Below, piece after piece: positions 3,120 through 7,968 of a stretch of 64,000 nt of DNA. Position 1 is the first letter of the stretch, and every line of letters starts with the position of its first letter. Source of the stretch: Planctomycetaceae bacterium (GTDB lineage Bacteria; Planctomycetota; Planctomycetia; Planctomycetales; Planctomycetaceae); contig JAKFUF010000011.1 of assembly GCA_021732845.1 (NCBI GenBank), forward strand, positions 62,001 through 126,000. The letters run 5' to 3'. The notes under the pieces are model-generated. The model made no database searches. It had not been told where the DNA came from and worked only from the letters and a program-made list of their open reading frames with translations. Both the position numbers and the translations under genes were made by a program.

Positions 3120-3560
3120 TCAGCGGGCGGCGTAGGCCAGTTGGTCTGCGACATCGACTTCGTCTTCCTCGACTTCCGGCTCATCGCCTTCCACCATCGC
3201 GGTGTCGTGTTCCGGGCGGAGTTCGTAGCCACCGTCACCGATCGGCTGGAAGAACCGGCTGAACCACAGCATCCGCTTCACGTTCGGCTGTGGCTGGAAC
3301 AGGTAGACCTGAACACCTTCGTCCCACCAGTCGAACAACATGCCGAAGAAGCCACTGGGAATGTATTTGACGAAGGTCATGTCGACGCCAACGGCCCGGC
3401 GGCGGTCGCCGCGAATCAAGCGGGTCAGCGATTCCCGCAGCAGTGCCAGATCGGCACCATCCCAAATCTCCATTTCGCCAACATACAGGACAATCACCTC
3501 GTCGTTGAACGTGGCCACGTCGTGTGACTCAACCCGGCAGAACTTCTTGCTGGCAGCCAT
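3120..3560 (-). CDS. STAS-domain-like protein
   Basis: The 146-residue protein has the layout of a STAS (anti-sigma factor antagonist) fold: a beta strand with FNDEVIVLYVG, a helix with LALLRESLTRLI, a strand reading AVGVDMTFVKYIPSG followed by FFGMLFDWWDEG, and a later strand (VQVYLF). The usual phosphorylatable Ser/Thr position appears as YIPSGFFG. The tail is acidic (GDEPEVEEDEVD). The start at 3560 is preferred over an upstream in-frame ATG at 3608 because AAGGAT lies just upstream. No partner kinase or phosphatase is adjacent. The assignment is by fold pattern only and the protein could instead be a structural STAS relative. Confidence 0.55.
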   Translation of the reverse strand: MAASKKFCRVESHDVATFNDEVIVLYVGEMEIWDGADLALLRESLTRLIRGDRRRAVGVDMTFVKYIPSGFFGMLFDWWDEGVQVYLFQPQPNVKRMLWFSRFFQPIGDGGYELRPEHDTAMVEGDEPEVEEDEVDVADQLAYAAR

Positions 3561-3813: not shown

Positions 3814-4059
3814 TCATTTCCTTCTGGCGTCGAGGATCGCCCTGACCAGATCCTCCGGGACGCTGGATTCGTCCGCGTCAGTCGGCAGGGGTTTGAAGGC
3901 CTGCTGGCCGAGGCGGACCGTTGTGCGGTACGTGTTCAGATAATTGACGCACGCCGGACAAACGGCGAGATGCTCCTCGAACCGCACACGTTCTTCGGGC
4001 GTGACGTTCCCTTCCGCGTAGTTCATAAGGAACTCGATGACTTCGCGGCAGGTCAGCAT
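3814..4059 (-). CDS. Putative zinc-finger anti-sigma factor (zf-HC2 family)
   Basis: This 81-residue protein carries the zf-HC2/ZAS signature: Cys4 near the start and H30-x3-C34-x2-C37 in EEHLAVCPACVNYL. No membrane segment is visible, so it is a soluble anti-sigma factor, in keeping with metal or redox sensing rather than envelope sensing. Its ATG overlaps the end of the upstream sigma-factor gene by 7 nt, which implies translational coupling and a 1:1 pair. Established for the family: the zinc-binding helix bundle sequesters an ECF sigma factor. Inference: it holds the neighbouring sigma factor until a metal or thiol stress occurs, and the target may be the divergent bufferin operon. Confidence 0.8.
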   Translation of the reverse strand: MLTCREVIEFLMNYAEGNVTPEERVRFEEHLAVCPACVNYLNTYRTTVRLGQQAFKPLPTDADESSVPEDLVRAILDARRK

Positions 4060-4673
4060 GGTTCATGTCCACGGAAATGAGCGTCCAGTCTGGTCCTCAG
4101 GGCCTGCCGGGCCCGGTGCAGCCGCGTGTTCACTGCCGTCAACGTCACCCCGAGCAACCGGGCGGTCTCGTCAGTGCTCAGCTCTTCGATGTCGCGCAGC
4201 AGCAGGACTGTTCGATACAACTCTGGCAACCGCTCGATATTTTCACGAACAACCTTCCTCAGCTCGCGCTGTTCGGCAAGTGAGTCGGCCGTCTGGTCCC
4301 AGGCCGTGGCCGGTTCAGCCGCGTGACCATCGGCGACAAACTGCGGCAAAAGGTCGTCAATGTTTTGTTCCGGGCGCCGTTTCCGGCTCCGCAACTTCAT
4401 CAGTGCCGAATTGACGGAAATCCGGTGCAACCACGTCGACAGGCTGCACTGCCCGTCGAACTGGTGCAGCGATTTGAAGGCCGAGAGGAAGGCATCCTGA
4501 ACGGCATCGCGGGCATCTTCGTCGTTTTGCAGCAGCCGTCGGGCCACCGCGATGAGCCGCGCGCCATGCTGGCGGACCAGCAGTTCATACGCCGTGTCGT
4601 CTCCAGACCTCAATGCCGCCAAGTATGCAGCGTCATCGGCATGCGTGTTGGGCGTGACCTGCAGATCGGACAT
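4053..4673 (-). CDS. ECF-type RNA polymerase sigma factor
   Basis: A 206-residue sigma-70 family ECF protein. Region 2 is visible as AYELLVRQHGARLIAVARRL and EDARDAVQDAFLSAFKSL, and region 4 as LPELYRTVLLLRDIEELS followed by DETARLLGVTLTAVNTRLHRAR with its helix-turn-helix. The frame stays open upstream to 5105, but the ATG at 4673 fits the normal ECF N-terminus and the extra residues resemble nothing. No clear Shine-Dalgarno is seen at this start. The gene overlaps its anti-sigma gene and is divergent from bufA across 317 bp, so autoregulation plus control of the bufferin operon is the simplest model, although no promoter motif was identified with confidence. Confidence 0.88.
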   Translation of the reverse strand: MSDLQVTPNTHADDAAYLAALRSGDDTAYELLVRQHGARLIAVARRLLQNDEDARDAVQDAFLSAFKSLHQFDGQCSLSTWLHRISVNSALMKLRSRKRRPEQNIDDLLPQFVADGHAAEPATAWDQTADSLAEQRELRKVVRENIERLPELYRTVLLLRDIEELSTDETARLLGVTLTAVNTRLHRARQALRTRLDAHFRGHEPC

Positions 4674-4734
4674 GACGGACGTCAGTGACCGTGGAACATG
4701 AAGGGGTGTCGGAGACACGACAGAACCGATTCTC

Positions 4735-4751
4735 GAATTCTTGAAGAATTC
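4735..4751. promoter_or_regulatory. Perfect 17-bp palindrome between sigma factor and bufA
   Basis: GAATTCTT-G-AAGAATTC is a perfect inverted repeat located 61 bp upstream of the sigma-factor start and 240 bp upstream of bufA. It could be an operator in this divergent intergenic region. It could also be chance; there is no second copy in the region. Confidence 0.3.
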
Positions 4752-4990
4752 CTGCAACTGTGGCTCCCGTCCGGCATCCAAGAAAGGGTCAGCCACGCCG
4801 CGTTGATTCCAGACGCGGGGCAGCGATGGCCGACAATTTTGCCCATCCCGTGGCTCAAAACATCCGGGTCCAACGGGAAGTTCTCCAGTGTTTCGCTGCG
4901 CCTGCGGTGCGCTCTCATTGCGGTGTTGAGTGCCCGCGGGTGGCGGTTCGAATTTTCGTGTGAAGCATTCCCAACCTGAGGAGAAGAGAG

Positions 4991-5476
4991 ATGCTCCGTT
5001 CGTCCCTGAACCGTCGTGATTTTTCGAAGCTGGCCGCAGCGGCCATGGGTGGCGTGGTGGTCGGGTCGCTGGCGTTCGGCGTGCCAGGCTGCAACAACGC
5101 CCCACCCGCCGGCGCGGGTGCCACGCCTCCTGCCGCCACGGCCGAAGCCACGCCCGCCAAGAGTGACTCCCATGCCTGCGCCGGCCTCAATGGCTGCAAG
5201 GGCCAGGGAGCCGATGGAAAGAACGCCTGTGCTGGACAGGGAACCTGTGCCACGGCCGGCATGCACCACGAGTGCAAGGGCCACAATGCCTGCAAAGGCG
5301 AGGGCGGCTGTGGCGAGAAGGGCGGTGCTGATGTCGGCAAGAATGAGTGCAAGGGGCACGGTGGCTGCGCGGTTCCCATGAAGGATGAGACCGCCTGGAA
5401 GAAGGCCCGCGAGAAGTTTGAAGCCAAGATGAAAGCCGATGGCAAGGAAGTCGGCCCGGCACCCGCCAAGTCCTGA
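4991..5476 (+). CDS. bufA: Bufferin-type metallophore precursor (BufA2-like)
   Basis: The 161-residue precursor begins with a twin-arginine signal ([15 protein letters not shown]) that ends in a possible lipobox, GVPGC (Cys about 34), then an Ala/Pro-rich linker. The core has nine cysteines, arranged as five C-x5-C units (CAGLNGC, CAGQGTC, CKGHNAC, CKGEGGC, CKGHGGC). The C-terminus is charged ([12 protein letters not shown]). A strong Shine-Dalgarno (GAGGAGAAGAGAG) precedes the ATG. Established for bufferins: DUF692/BufB converts core cysteines to copper-binding thiooxazole-type heterocycles with BufC as partner, and the peptide protects against copper. The gene order bufABCD supports the call. 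The Tat signal and the repeat density differ from the classic proteobacterial precursors. Confidence 0.8.
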
Positions 5477-5550
5477 TCCTCCTCCGATTCCGGCGGCAGA
5501 CTCTTTCACTGCCGCCGGCAGTTTGTCCTGACGCTTGTCTCAACCACTCC

Positions 5551-6444
5551 ATGACGGCTCGCGACGCGGAAACTCACATGCTCACTCTGGCTCAACCCGC
5601 TACCCGCCATCGTCTCGGTCTCCCCAATCTGGGGCTGGGGGTCGGACTGCGTTCTGTGCACTTTCCGTACATTCTCGAGCATTACCCAAAGGTCGATTGG
5701 TTCGAGGTGATTTCGGAAAACTTCATGGATTCGCGGGGCCGTCCGCGCTACGTTTTGGATCAGATTGCCGAGCGCTACCCCGTCGTCATGCACGGAGTCT
5801 CGCTCTCGATTGGGTCCACCGACCCGCTCGATTTTGATTATCTCGCCAAGCTCAAACGGCTGGCGAACGAAACCAAAGCCCGCTGGGTTTCCGATCACCT
5901 CTGCTGGACTGGCGTCCTGGGTCTCAATTCGCACGACCTGCTGCCGATTCCGCTGAATGACGAGTCGCTGGCGCATGTCTGCCACCGCATTCAGATCGTG
6001 CAGGATTTCCTCGAACGCCCGCTCGTGCTGGAGAACCCCAGCACGTATGTCACGTTTGCCGACTCAACGTACTCCGAATGGGAGTTCCTGTCGTTGATGG
6101 CCCTCGAAACGAACTGCGGCCTGCTGCTCGATGTCAACAACGTGTATGTCTCCAGCGTGAATCATGAATTCGACGCTGAGGACTACATTCGCCATGTGCC
6201 CCACGATCGCATCGTGCAGTTGCATCTCGCCGGCCACAGCACGTTCCCCACGCACCTGATTGACACGCACGATCACCCGGTGATTGATCAGGTGTGGGAA
6301 CTGTACGCCCTGGCCCACCAACTCACGGGCGGCGTCTCGACACTGCTGGAGTGGGACGCCGAGATCCCTCCGTTTCCGGTGGTGCATGCCGAGGTGCTGA
6401 AGGCGCGGGAGGCCGTGAGAACATTTTCGATTTTCGATTTGTGA
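5551..6444 (+). CDS. bufB: DUF692 multinuclear iron enzyme of bufferin maturation (BufB/MbnB family)
   Basis: A 297-residue TIM-barrel protein of the DUF692 family. Conserved pieces are [84 protein letters not shown] and LLEWDAEIP, which supply the His, Asp and Glu iron ligands of the family. Family members oxidise peptide cysteines to oxazolone/thioamide or thiooxazole groups using two or three iron atoms, with a DUF2063 partner. The enzyme acts in the cytoplasm on the product of the preceding gene. The start is either ATG 5551 or ATG 5578; the conserved domain begins after both. The length is normal for the family. Confidence 0.92.
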
Positions 6445-6462
6445 TTTTCGATTTGGGTCGAA

Positions 6463-7365
6463 GTGATGGCGCTCCGTTCTTCTGTCCTTCCAAGTCTTGA
6501 GGCCGAAATGTTGGCTAAAACGGGCGAGCGGTCCCTGCTGCGGCTGGAGTCGTGGATGCTGGCCGCGATCACTTCTCCACAGGGCGTTCCCGAGCGTGTC
6601 AATTCGCGGGAAGAGCGGCCGTTCATTCACGAGACGAACACATGGGATGCCCGATCGCGGATGGAAGTTTACTGGAGTGCCTTCCGCATTCGGCTGCAGG
6701 AGTGCATGGCCGTCGACTACCCGACTTTCAAACTGGCGGTGGGCGATGAGTTGTTTGAGAACTTCGTGGCGGAGTACTTGGAGGCGCATCCGCCGCAAAG
6801 TTACACGCTCGGGCGGTTGGGGATGAAGTTTCCGGACTTTCTGTCGGCATCGCGTCCCAGGCGTGAAAGCGCTGACACACCCGACTGGGCCGACTATCTG
6901 GCAGATCTCGCCCGGTTTGAGCTAACCCTGAGCGAAGTCTTTGATGGTGCCGGATTGGAGTCGCACCCCGGAGCCGCACCCTCCCGATTTCAGGATCTGT
7001 CGAGCCTGAACGGCGAAGAGTTCGTGAATCTACGGTTTCAGGTGGCCCCTTGTCTCAGACTGCTGACCACCCGCTTTGCCGTCCGTGACCATTACCTGTC
7101 ACTGAAGCAAGGCCGGGCAGAGGAGCCGGTACCAGCCTCACAGCACATGGCGGTGACGCGCGTCAACTACGCCGTCAAGCATTATGAACTGTCCCGCGTG
7201 CAGTGGCAGTTGCTGTGTGCCCTGCGAAACGGCGACTCCCTGGGGGCCGCCCTCGAACAGGCATGCGAGGCACACCCCGAAGCCTGCGAGACGATCGCAG
7301 TACAACTCGGTCCTTGGTTTCAAACCTGGACGGCCGCCAACTTCTTCCAATCCATCACGCTGTAA
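6463..7365 (+). CDS. bufC: DUF2063 partner protein of bufferin maturation (BufC/MbnC-like)
   Basis: A protein of up to 300 residues with the DUF2063 pattern: LRLESWMLAAITSPQGVP near the start, then RMEVYWSAFRIRLQECMAVD, YPTFKLAVGDELFENFVAEY and HPPQSYTLGRLGMKFPDFL. In the methanobactin and bufferin systems this protein binds the DUF692 enzyme and presents the precursor peptide. It starts 18 nt after bufB, or 63 nt after it if the second ATG at 6508, which fits the conserved N-terminus better, is used. The short gap contains a GATTTTCGATTT repeat that is also seen in other intergenic spots of this window. Confidence 0.85.
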   Translation: MMALRSSVLPSLEAEMLAKTGERSLLRLESWMLAAITSPQGVPERVNSREERPFIHETNTWDARSRMEVYWSAFRIRLQECMAVDYPTFKLAVGDELFENFVAEYLEAHPPQSYTLGRLGMKFPDFLSASRPRRESADTPDWADYLADLARFELTLSEVFDGAGLESHPGAAPSRFQDLSSLNGEEFVNLRFQVAPCLRLLTTRFAVRDHYLSLKQGRAEEPVPASQHMAVTRVNYAVKHYELSRVQWQLLCALRNGDSLGAALEQACEAHPEACETIAVQLGPWFQTWTAANFFQSITL

Positions 7366-7425
7366 ATCTTCCGACGACCTCCGTCTCTCATGTGAACCAA
7401 TCAACACCGTCAAGGAATCGAAATC

Positions 7426-7968
7426 ATGTCCATGATGCGCCGTGCCTACTCGATGCAGATCGATTTGATGACCCGCGTTCAACCGGTGCTGCTATTGGCG
7501 ATTCGCCTCTACTGGGGCTGGCAGTTCTTTTTGACGGGACGCGGAAAACTGATGAACCTCGAACGGACCGCCGCGTTCTTCGACAGCCTCGGGATTCCGC
7601 TGCCAATGCTGAACGCCGGCATGGCCGGCACCACCGAATGCCTCGGCGGACTGTTGATGCTGGCCGGTCTGGGGTCACGCATGACAACCATTCCACTCGT
7701 CGCCACGATGCTGGTGGCTTACGCCACCGCGCACCAGGCAGAACTGGGCGCGCTGTTCAACAACCCCGATGCCTTTGTTTCCGCTCCGCCGTTCCTTTTC
7801 CTGTTGGCCTCGCTGATGGTCATGATCTTTGGCCCCGGCTGGATCTCTGCCGACGGAATGCTGCAGCACTTCTGCTTCGGGAAATGCCCGCTGAATTCGA
7901 GCCGGCCTGCGGCACCCTCCGCAACCTCTGACATGCACACGCAACCTGTCGTTGCATCACACCGTTGA
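7426..7968 (+). CDS. bufD: DoxX-family membrane protein of the bufferin operon
   Basis: This 180-residue protein has the DoxX signature: an N-terminal arginine-anchored helix with LLLAIRLYWGWQFFLTGRGKL, then FFDSLGIPLP, GTTECLGGLLMLAGL, a third helix (IPLVATMLVAYAT) and a fourth (FLFLLASLMVMIFGPGW). Four membrane segments are expected. DoxX proteins are regular members of bufferin and methanobactin-like operons; their exact role is unknown. It is the last gene of the buf operon and its 3' end overlaps the convergent transglutaminase gene by 12 bp. Confidence 0.85.
   Translation: MSMMRRAYSMQIDLMTRVQPVLLLAIRLYWGWQFFLTGRGKLMNLERTAAFFDSLGIPLPMLNAGMAGTTECLGGLLMLAGLGSRMTTIPLVATMLVAYATAHQAELGALFNNPDAFVSAPPFLFLLASLMVMIFGPGWISADGMLQHFCFGKCPLNSSRPAAPSATSDMHTQPVVASHR

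Follow-up and report, generated by a model that had tools for sequence, protein, structure and literature searches.

A Buf2-like bufferin cluster of a planctomycete with a putative twin-arginine precursor signal and a divergent sigma/zinc anti-sigma factor gene pair

Passages of a published bufferin survey (PMC12452194) report that bufferin precursors carry Sec signals, that about 16% of Buf2 precursors have lipoprotein signals, and that Sec export of the precursor of a ribosomally synthesized and post-translationally modified peptide (RiPP) is highly unusual for bacteria. Control by a sigma factor is described for Caulobacter in passages of PMC3511200, where NrsF keeps the extracytoplasmic function (ECF) sigma factor sigmaF at the membrane. 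The sigmaF regulon there comprises YedY and two precursor-DUF692-DUF2063 operons, with DUF2282, DUF692, DUF2063 and DoxX genes. Another ECF-controlled system, sigF/nrsF-mrpX-yedYZ, is presented as a hypochlorite system in passages of PMC4623255. Here, a gene cluster at positions 3814-7968 of a 64,000-nt stretch of a Planctomycetaceae genome (the window) is described, in which bufferin genes adjoin a divergent gene pair for an ECF sigma factor and a soluble zinc-site anti-sigma factor. The reading that is moderately favoured here is that this is a Buf2-like cluster whose precursor would leave the cytoplasm by the twin-arginine translocation (Tat) pathway and which would have its own ECF sigma/zinc anti-sigma switch.

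The precursor gene bufA (4991-5476, plus strand) encodes a protein of 161 aa with 10 Cys residues, and it is followed on the same strand by bufB (5551-6444; 297 aa), bufC (6463-7365, the start being uncertain between GTG 6463 and ATG 6508) and bufD (7426-7968; 180 aa). BufB matches PF05114 with 359.4 bits and the NCBIfam model "MNIO family bufferin maturase" (NF050167) with 355.5 bits (cut-off 310). The Pfam match is over the cut-off, and the family, MNIO/MbnB_TglH_ChrH, was formerly called DUF692. BufC is a DUF2063 partner protein (PF09836, 63.7 bits) and BufD a DoxX family membrane protein (PF07681, 65.2 bits), both over the cut-off. On the minus strand, the sigma factor gene (4053-4673; 206 aa) has matches over the cut-off to Sigma70_r2 (63.8 bits) and r4_2 (62.2 bits), and it shares positions 4053-4059 with the gene for a zf-HC2 protein of the zinc-associated anti-sigma (ZAS) type (3814-4059; 81 aa; PF13490, 44.8 bits, cut-off 22.2). 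A divergent region of 317 bp (4674-4990) lies between the sigma factor gene and bufA. The order bufA-bufB-bufC-bufD and the divergent ECF pair with a soluble, zinc-site anti-sigma factor, both put forward in the original prediction, are thus confirmed by the Pfam and NCBIfam matches and by the opposite strands.

The precursor scores below the cut-off of the BufA2 model NF050166 (28.7 of 60 bits), and it is therefore filed as Buf2-like; 39 of 40 BufA relatives match the same model at E up to 0.1. BufC and BufD are likewise below the equivalog cut-offs of HvfC (41.1 of 142) and HvfX (68.2 of 80). By its sequence, the cluster is Buf2-like, not Buf1 (DUF2282) as in Caulobacter. One of the 10 Cys residues of BufA is in a possible lipobox, and the other nine form a core at residues 63-126 (5177-5368). 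In an alignment of 40 BufA sequences, C63, C80, C95, C101, C120 and C126 are invariant, and C69, C86 and C107 are conserved in at least 90%. In a quick tree search, the window BufB clusters with those of L065 and L066 (SH-like approximate likelihood ratio test 94%, the mark of the program being 95).

The N-terminus of the window BufA (4991-5092) shows a twin-arginine motif of the RR-x-F type (LNRRDFSKL...) and a weakly hydrophobic stretch, up to the possible lipobox VPGC with Cys34. This signal is absent from the account of the cluster in the original prediction. In the 40 aligned BufA sequences, R8 and R9 are invariant (40/40), at least 90% of the sequences share F11, and an AAAxGGxxAG region of weak hydrophobicity is present. 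These sequences were picked by full-length similarity (>=90 bits), which could favour the signal, and therefore 392 genomes of the phylum were searched with the core only; 57 had a match at E<=1e-5, and 68 loci were tested. A strict rule was applied, requiring RR.[FLMVIY] within 20 residues after the start codon and then a hydrophobic stretch. All BufA loci of the own class satisfy it (28/28, from 25 genomes, the own genome counting twice). The rest of the phylum gave 19/40, with two doubtful cases (L257 and L312), and the 21 negatives include three that are unjudgeable (the L284 sequence is truncated at an early Cys, L310 lies at the end of its contig, and the match in L315 is doubtful). A control of 20 Pseudomonadota BufA2 sequences, each from a different genome and each scoring above the family cut-off, gave a single pass, itself doubtful (KRRL). 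The contrast between 28/28 and 1/20 has a Fisher P of 1.7e-12 with relatedness ignored. Another 18 weaker control rows (0/18 Tat) were set aside, as several look Buf1-like, some are not from Pseudomonadota, and L341 is misframed. A lipobox-like Cys is found in 23/28 of the own-class BufA with a loose pattern.

The own genome (9.25 Mb, 262 contigs) contains a TatC gene and a second bufA of the Tat type on contig C150 (L237), with 71% core identity to the window BufA; no MNIO match was found on that contig. Two further MNIO genes are present on C199 and, more distant, on C27, and the former belongs to a bufBC pair (L033) without a recognisable bufA beside it.

The words "Tat" and "twin-arginine" were not found in the main text of PMC12452194 or in the texts of PMC12636315, PMC12538549 and PMC13097082. 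The literature searches returned no paper linking Tat or an anti-sigma factor with MNIO/DUF692 bufferins; one match concerned azurin, and in PMC12509749 "bufferins" and "twin-arginine" both occur, in unrelated passages. According to passages of PMC12452194, one step of its precursor selection required a predicted Sec signal, so Tat-type precursors may lie elsewhere in its sets. The predicted Tat signal of BufA is unreported in the literature searched, and it is a stronger feature of this cluster than the link to the sigma factor. As a separate observation, a precursor of Blastocatellia (L102:6442-6915), encoded before bufB and without a Pfam match, starts in a Tat-like manner and contains numerous CKGEKAS repeats.

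The link between the sigma pair and the buf genes was examined in the family, the class and the phylum. An ortholog is here a best match at 45-62% identity in a one-way search, and the phylum search scored 8 candidates per genome. Probable orthologs of the window sigma factor are present in 12 other genomes of the family (48-61% identity; 101 searched). At phylum level, matches at E<=1e-40 were obtained from 48/392 genomes, own included, and 54 sigma loci were examined, with G423, G175, G084, G254 and G371 left out. In G259 (L376), the sigma pair is divergent from bufA-bufB-bufC, which is the layout of the window, but no DoxX match was found there. In G264 (L394), bufA, bufB, bufC, DoxX, a probable NDH-2, the sigma factor and the anti-sigma factor are encoded on one strand; its bufA, placed before bufB, is short, Cys-rich and Sec-lipoprotein-like, as read from the frames. 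The G264 sigma factor has 57% identity to that of the window, and the anti-sigma factors of G259 and G264 are identical to the window anti-sigma factor at 42/79 and 40/80 positions. DoxX and NDH-2 adjoin the sigma pair in G180 (L401), and an NDH-2 domain protein also adjoins the sigma factor in L230. The gene calls of L376, L394 and L401 are partly misframed (high GC), and the assignments rest on phmmer matches and clusters.

Both the sigma factor and buf genes are held by 22/392 genomes, own included. The two are linked in 2 of the 21 others, against about 0.05 expected (range 0.01-0.07, placement within five genes), which gives P 0.00005-0.002, varying with the assumed gene numbers in a post hoc calculation. 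G423 is counted as unlinked solely because its sigma factor and buf genes lie on different contigs. The link between sigma factor and buf is probably real, though not conserved among planctomycete buf clusters.

The window anti-sigma factor has the ligands of a full Cys3His site (C4-x25-H30-x3-C34-x2-C37). In an alignment of the window protein with 11 orthologs (12 rows), H30, C34 and C37 are invariant and C4 is conserved in at least 90%. The predicted structure has four helices (predicted local distance difference test score, pLDDT, 81.8), and in a Foldseek search all 12 matches were anti-sigma factors, RsiW, RslA and ChrR among them, the best E of 0.24 being non-significant. No match to NrsF (PF06532) was found in the window anti-sigma factor by Pfam search. 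The spacing C-x25-H-x3-C-x2-C of the window protein is that of the redox switch RsrA.

Around the sigma orthologs of the family, redox or Met-repair genes were found at 9/12 loci, two of which are near-identical sisters. They are MsrP-like, MsrQ-like, cytochrome b561, AhpC/TSA, thioredoxin-like or flavohaemoprotein genes, with MsrP-like, MsrQ-like or cytochrome b561 genes beside the orthologs in L228, L229, L230 and L233. The queries were picked from the same family loci, so that the comparison of 9/12 with a background of 4.7% is biased and serves as a lead only. Small Met-rich proteins with DKM repeats are encoded by the sigma pair orthologs in L228:7994-8185, L229:3806-4045 and L230:3150-3401. 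They are lipoprotein-like in L229 and L230. A cytochrome b561 gene follows each of them, and L228 and L230 have an MsrP-like gene there as well; there was no NCBIfam match for those of L228-L230 and no Pfam match for those of L229 and L230.

Several results weigh against the favoured reading. On the side of the precursor, the window BufA is below the cut-offs of the curated Tat models (TIGR01409, 13.3 of 16.7; PF10399, 18.6 of 24), and AlphaFold2 gave no confident fold for the unmodified protein (pLDDT 52). On the side of the regulator, the orthologous sigma pair was beside an MNIO gene at 0/31 loci of the own genome (2) and of the family and class (29), 25 of them with a close BufB. The sigma factors linked to buf are not one clade in the tree, and the linkage is therefore read as repeated recruitment. 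The BufA of G259 is doubtful by the Tat rule and that of G264 is Sec-lipoprotein-like, so that neither linked relative has a clear Tat signal; therefore, the sigma switch and the Tat signal are treated as separate features. In the wider phylum set, the same redox queries had a match at 1/41 loci (L417). A bipartite word search revealed no promoter motif shared by the sigma factor and bufA in the divergent region, and nothing beyond shuffles among 12 and then 33 sigma upstream regions. The shared motif expected in the original prediction was therefore not recovered, in a test of little power; the other expectation, that the pair stays with buf genes in relatives, fails in the own genome, family and class and, in the wider phylum, holds for G259 and G264.

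The 80 closest BufB loci, of which 10 extend <2.5 kb upstream, likewise lack the orthologous pair, and no buf genes were found on the fetched stretches around the family sigma orthologs, some of them cut by contig ends; in L230, a distant MNIO gene lies about 7 kb from the sigma ortholog. A sigma-70 scan found no site between the sigma factor gene and bufA. The same region contains a perfect 8+1+8 palindrome of 17 bp, GAATTCTTgAAGAATTC (4735-4751), a possible operator, which may be the site of another regulator.

The alternative that survives best is that the neighbourhood arose by chance, the sigma pair being one of up to about 58 ECF-like systems that regulates something else while buf uses another promoter. 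The missing linkage in the family and the lack of a shared motif agree with it, as do the 58 sigma region-4 matches over the cut-off in the own genome, on which an expectation of about 1.6 immediately adjacent ECF genes by chance is based. Also in agreement with it, ECF genes of any kind were found within 2.6 kb of bufB at only 6/112 loci, in a scan whose ECF profile was trained on sequences including the window, L046, L137 and L108. If five of these (the window, L046, L137, L108 and L091) are counted as adjacent, against 1.6 expected, there is a mild, post hoc excess (P 0.025) that counts against chance. A further objection is that G259 and G264, both distant, have the orthologous pair itself, not any ECF, adjoining buf, and G264 has DoxX there too; the probability of this linkage by chance is about 0.001 in a rough post hoc count. 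A chance neighbourhood is considered a serious alternative, though rather less than probable.

The ECFs near the closest BufB loci (L088, L091, L108 and L137) are different ones. In L046 and L137, an ECF, a small HxxxCxxC protein and bufA are encoded on one strand; the small protein belongs to no Pfam family in L046 and matches zf-HC2 under the cut-off in L137. In an acidobacterial Buf2-like cluster (L108:6558-9946), the start of the precursor is Tat-like, and bufC is followed by genes for an ECF and for a protein resembling NrsF (20.6 bits, below the cut-off of 26.8); in the passages of PMC12452194, sigma/NrsF genes are reported for Buf1 and not for Buf2 biosynthetic gene clusters (BGCs).

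The second alternative concerns the signal. In the original prediction the anti-sigma factor could sense copper directly. In such a mechanism, Cu(I) would displace zinc in the Cys3His site and free the sigma factor. The intact site and a product that would buffer copper by homology are consistent with this, while the ligands and spacing, which are those of RsrA, and the frequent position of the family sigma orthologs near redox or Met-repair genes without buf, argue against it, and direct copper sensing appears unlikely. The likelihood of thiol or oxidant sensing is no lower than that of copper sensing, and it is favoured over a dedicated copper site because of the RsrA spacing, the redox and Met-repair neighbours, and the parallels with Caulobacter sigmaF and with sigF/nrsF-mrpX-yedYZ. 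That BufA is an ordinary Sec lipoprotein with an incidental RR pair is very improbable. The lipoprotein signals of about 16% of Buf2 in passages of PMC12452194, the possible lipobox and the 21/40 BufA elsewhere in the phylum that fail the Tat rule, three of them unjudgeable, speak for it; RR in 40/40, F11 in at least 90%, the weakly hydrophobic AAAxGGxxAG region and a Pseudomonadota control of 1/20 speak against it.

Under the favoured reading of a Tat-exported, sigma-controlled Buf2-like cluster, BufA would be made in the cytoplasm from the gene seen here, and BufB and BufC would turn core Cys residues into thiooxazole-type groups, as suggested by their families. The twin-arginine signal would route the modified, probably folded BufA through Tat, and BufA would be lipid-anchored at Cys34 or released. 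By analogy with published bufferins, it would buffer copper or another thiophilic metal in the envelope, and DoxX would assist in some way. The sigma factor would stay bound to the soluble anti-sigma factor as long as the Cys3His zinc site is intact; once this site is attacked by oxidants or by metals that bind thiols, the freed sigma factor would transcribe the buf genes to which it is linked.

A bolder extension, quite unlikely at present, is that planctomycete bufferins fold and are loaded with metal in the cytoplasm after Cys modification and are exported by Tat as metallopeptides, a peptide-borne copper efflux. Here, it would be switched on by an ECF system that senses thiol chemistry; the system is found again next to buf in distant planctomycetes, and relatives have it next to genes for Met-rich peptides and MsrP-like proteins. 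A Tat-routed group would imply that modification, perhaps with metal loading, is complete in the cytosol before export, and the site at which copper is taken up by bufferins becomes directly testable. Tat export, unlike that of published relatives, would change the view of bufferin copper handling. From the recurrence of the pair with a zinc anti-sigma factor, it would seem that periplasmic peptides with a sacrificial or metal-binding role came under ECF control more than once, with different sensors.

Other features were recorded near the sigma genes and among the precursors. A gene with a weak STAS domain (17.2 bits, cut-off 22.6) lies at 3120-3560 of the window, on the strand of the anti-sigma gene and downstream of it, and the sigma ortholog in L233 is flanked by a SpoIIE phosphatase and an open reading frame that looks STAS-like by eye. 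In L089:1679-3796 and L139:4731-6983, a BufA2-like Cys core is fused behind a Ferritin-like domain (PF12902), directly before bufB, and similarly long N-terminal parts are found in L094, L107, L122, L126, L133, L136 and L140; the word "Ferritin" was not found in the main text of PMC12452194. BufA-like proteins of Flavobacteriaceae with 13-14 Cys residues have no evident signal peptide (MSELVTKELHVCMGLNSCK...; L106, L109, L111-L113, L115, L117, L118, L120, L121, L123 and L127), and they are possibly cytosolic relatives of bufferins.

Among the described systems, the RsrA/SigR-type ZAS switches share with the window a small soluble anti-sigma factor with Cys and HxxxCxxC ligands, but the window protein is below the equivalog cut-off of TIGR03988 (28.3 of 62.5). 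The loci L228-L230 resemble sigF/nrsF-mrpX-yedYZ, as presented in passages of PMC4623255, in that their sigma orthologs are near a gene for a small Met-rich protein and cytochrome b561, with MsrP-like genes in L228 and L230. The anti-sigma factor is NrsF there and zf-HC2 at L228-L230 and in the window, and the peptide is Met-rich there and Cys-rich in the window.

The Caulobacter sigmaF/NrsF regulon likewise combines an ECF sigma factor with precursor, DUF692, DUF2063 and DoxX genes, and there the control is known. The precedent invoked in the original prediction, buf genes under an ECF sigma factor and a membrane anti-sigma factor, is documented in the passages of PMC3511200. Its anti-sigma factor is a membrane protein of the DUF1109/NrsF type, whereas that of the window is a soluble zf-HC2 protein, and its precursor is Buf1 (DUF2282), whereas that of the window is Buf2-like.

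The closest likeness in gene content is to the Buf2 clusters in the passages of PMC12452194, with precursor, MNIO, DUF2063 and DoxX genes, a Cys-rich core, and lipoprotein signals on some precursors, to be compared with the possible lipobox of the window BufA. The published cores have 6 or 12 Cys residues, and that of the window BufA has nine. Sigma and NrsF genes accompany Buf1 and not Buf2 BGCs in those passages, whereas the Buf2-like cluster of the window adjoins an ECF/anti-sigma pair. The published Buf2 precursors carry a Sec signal, whereas the signal of the window BufA is, by its sequence motif, of the Tat type.

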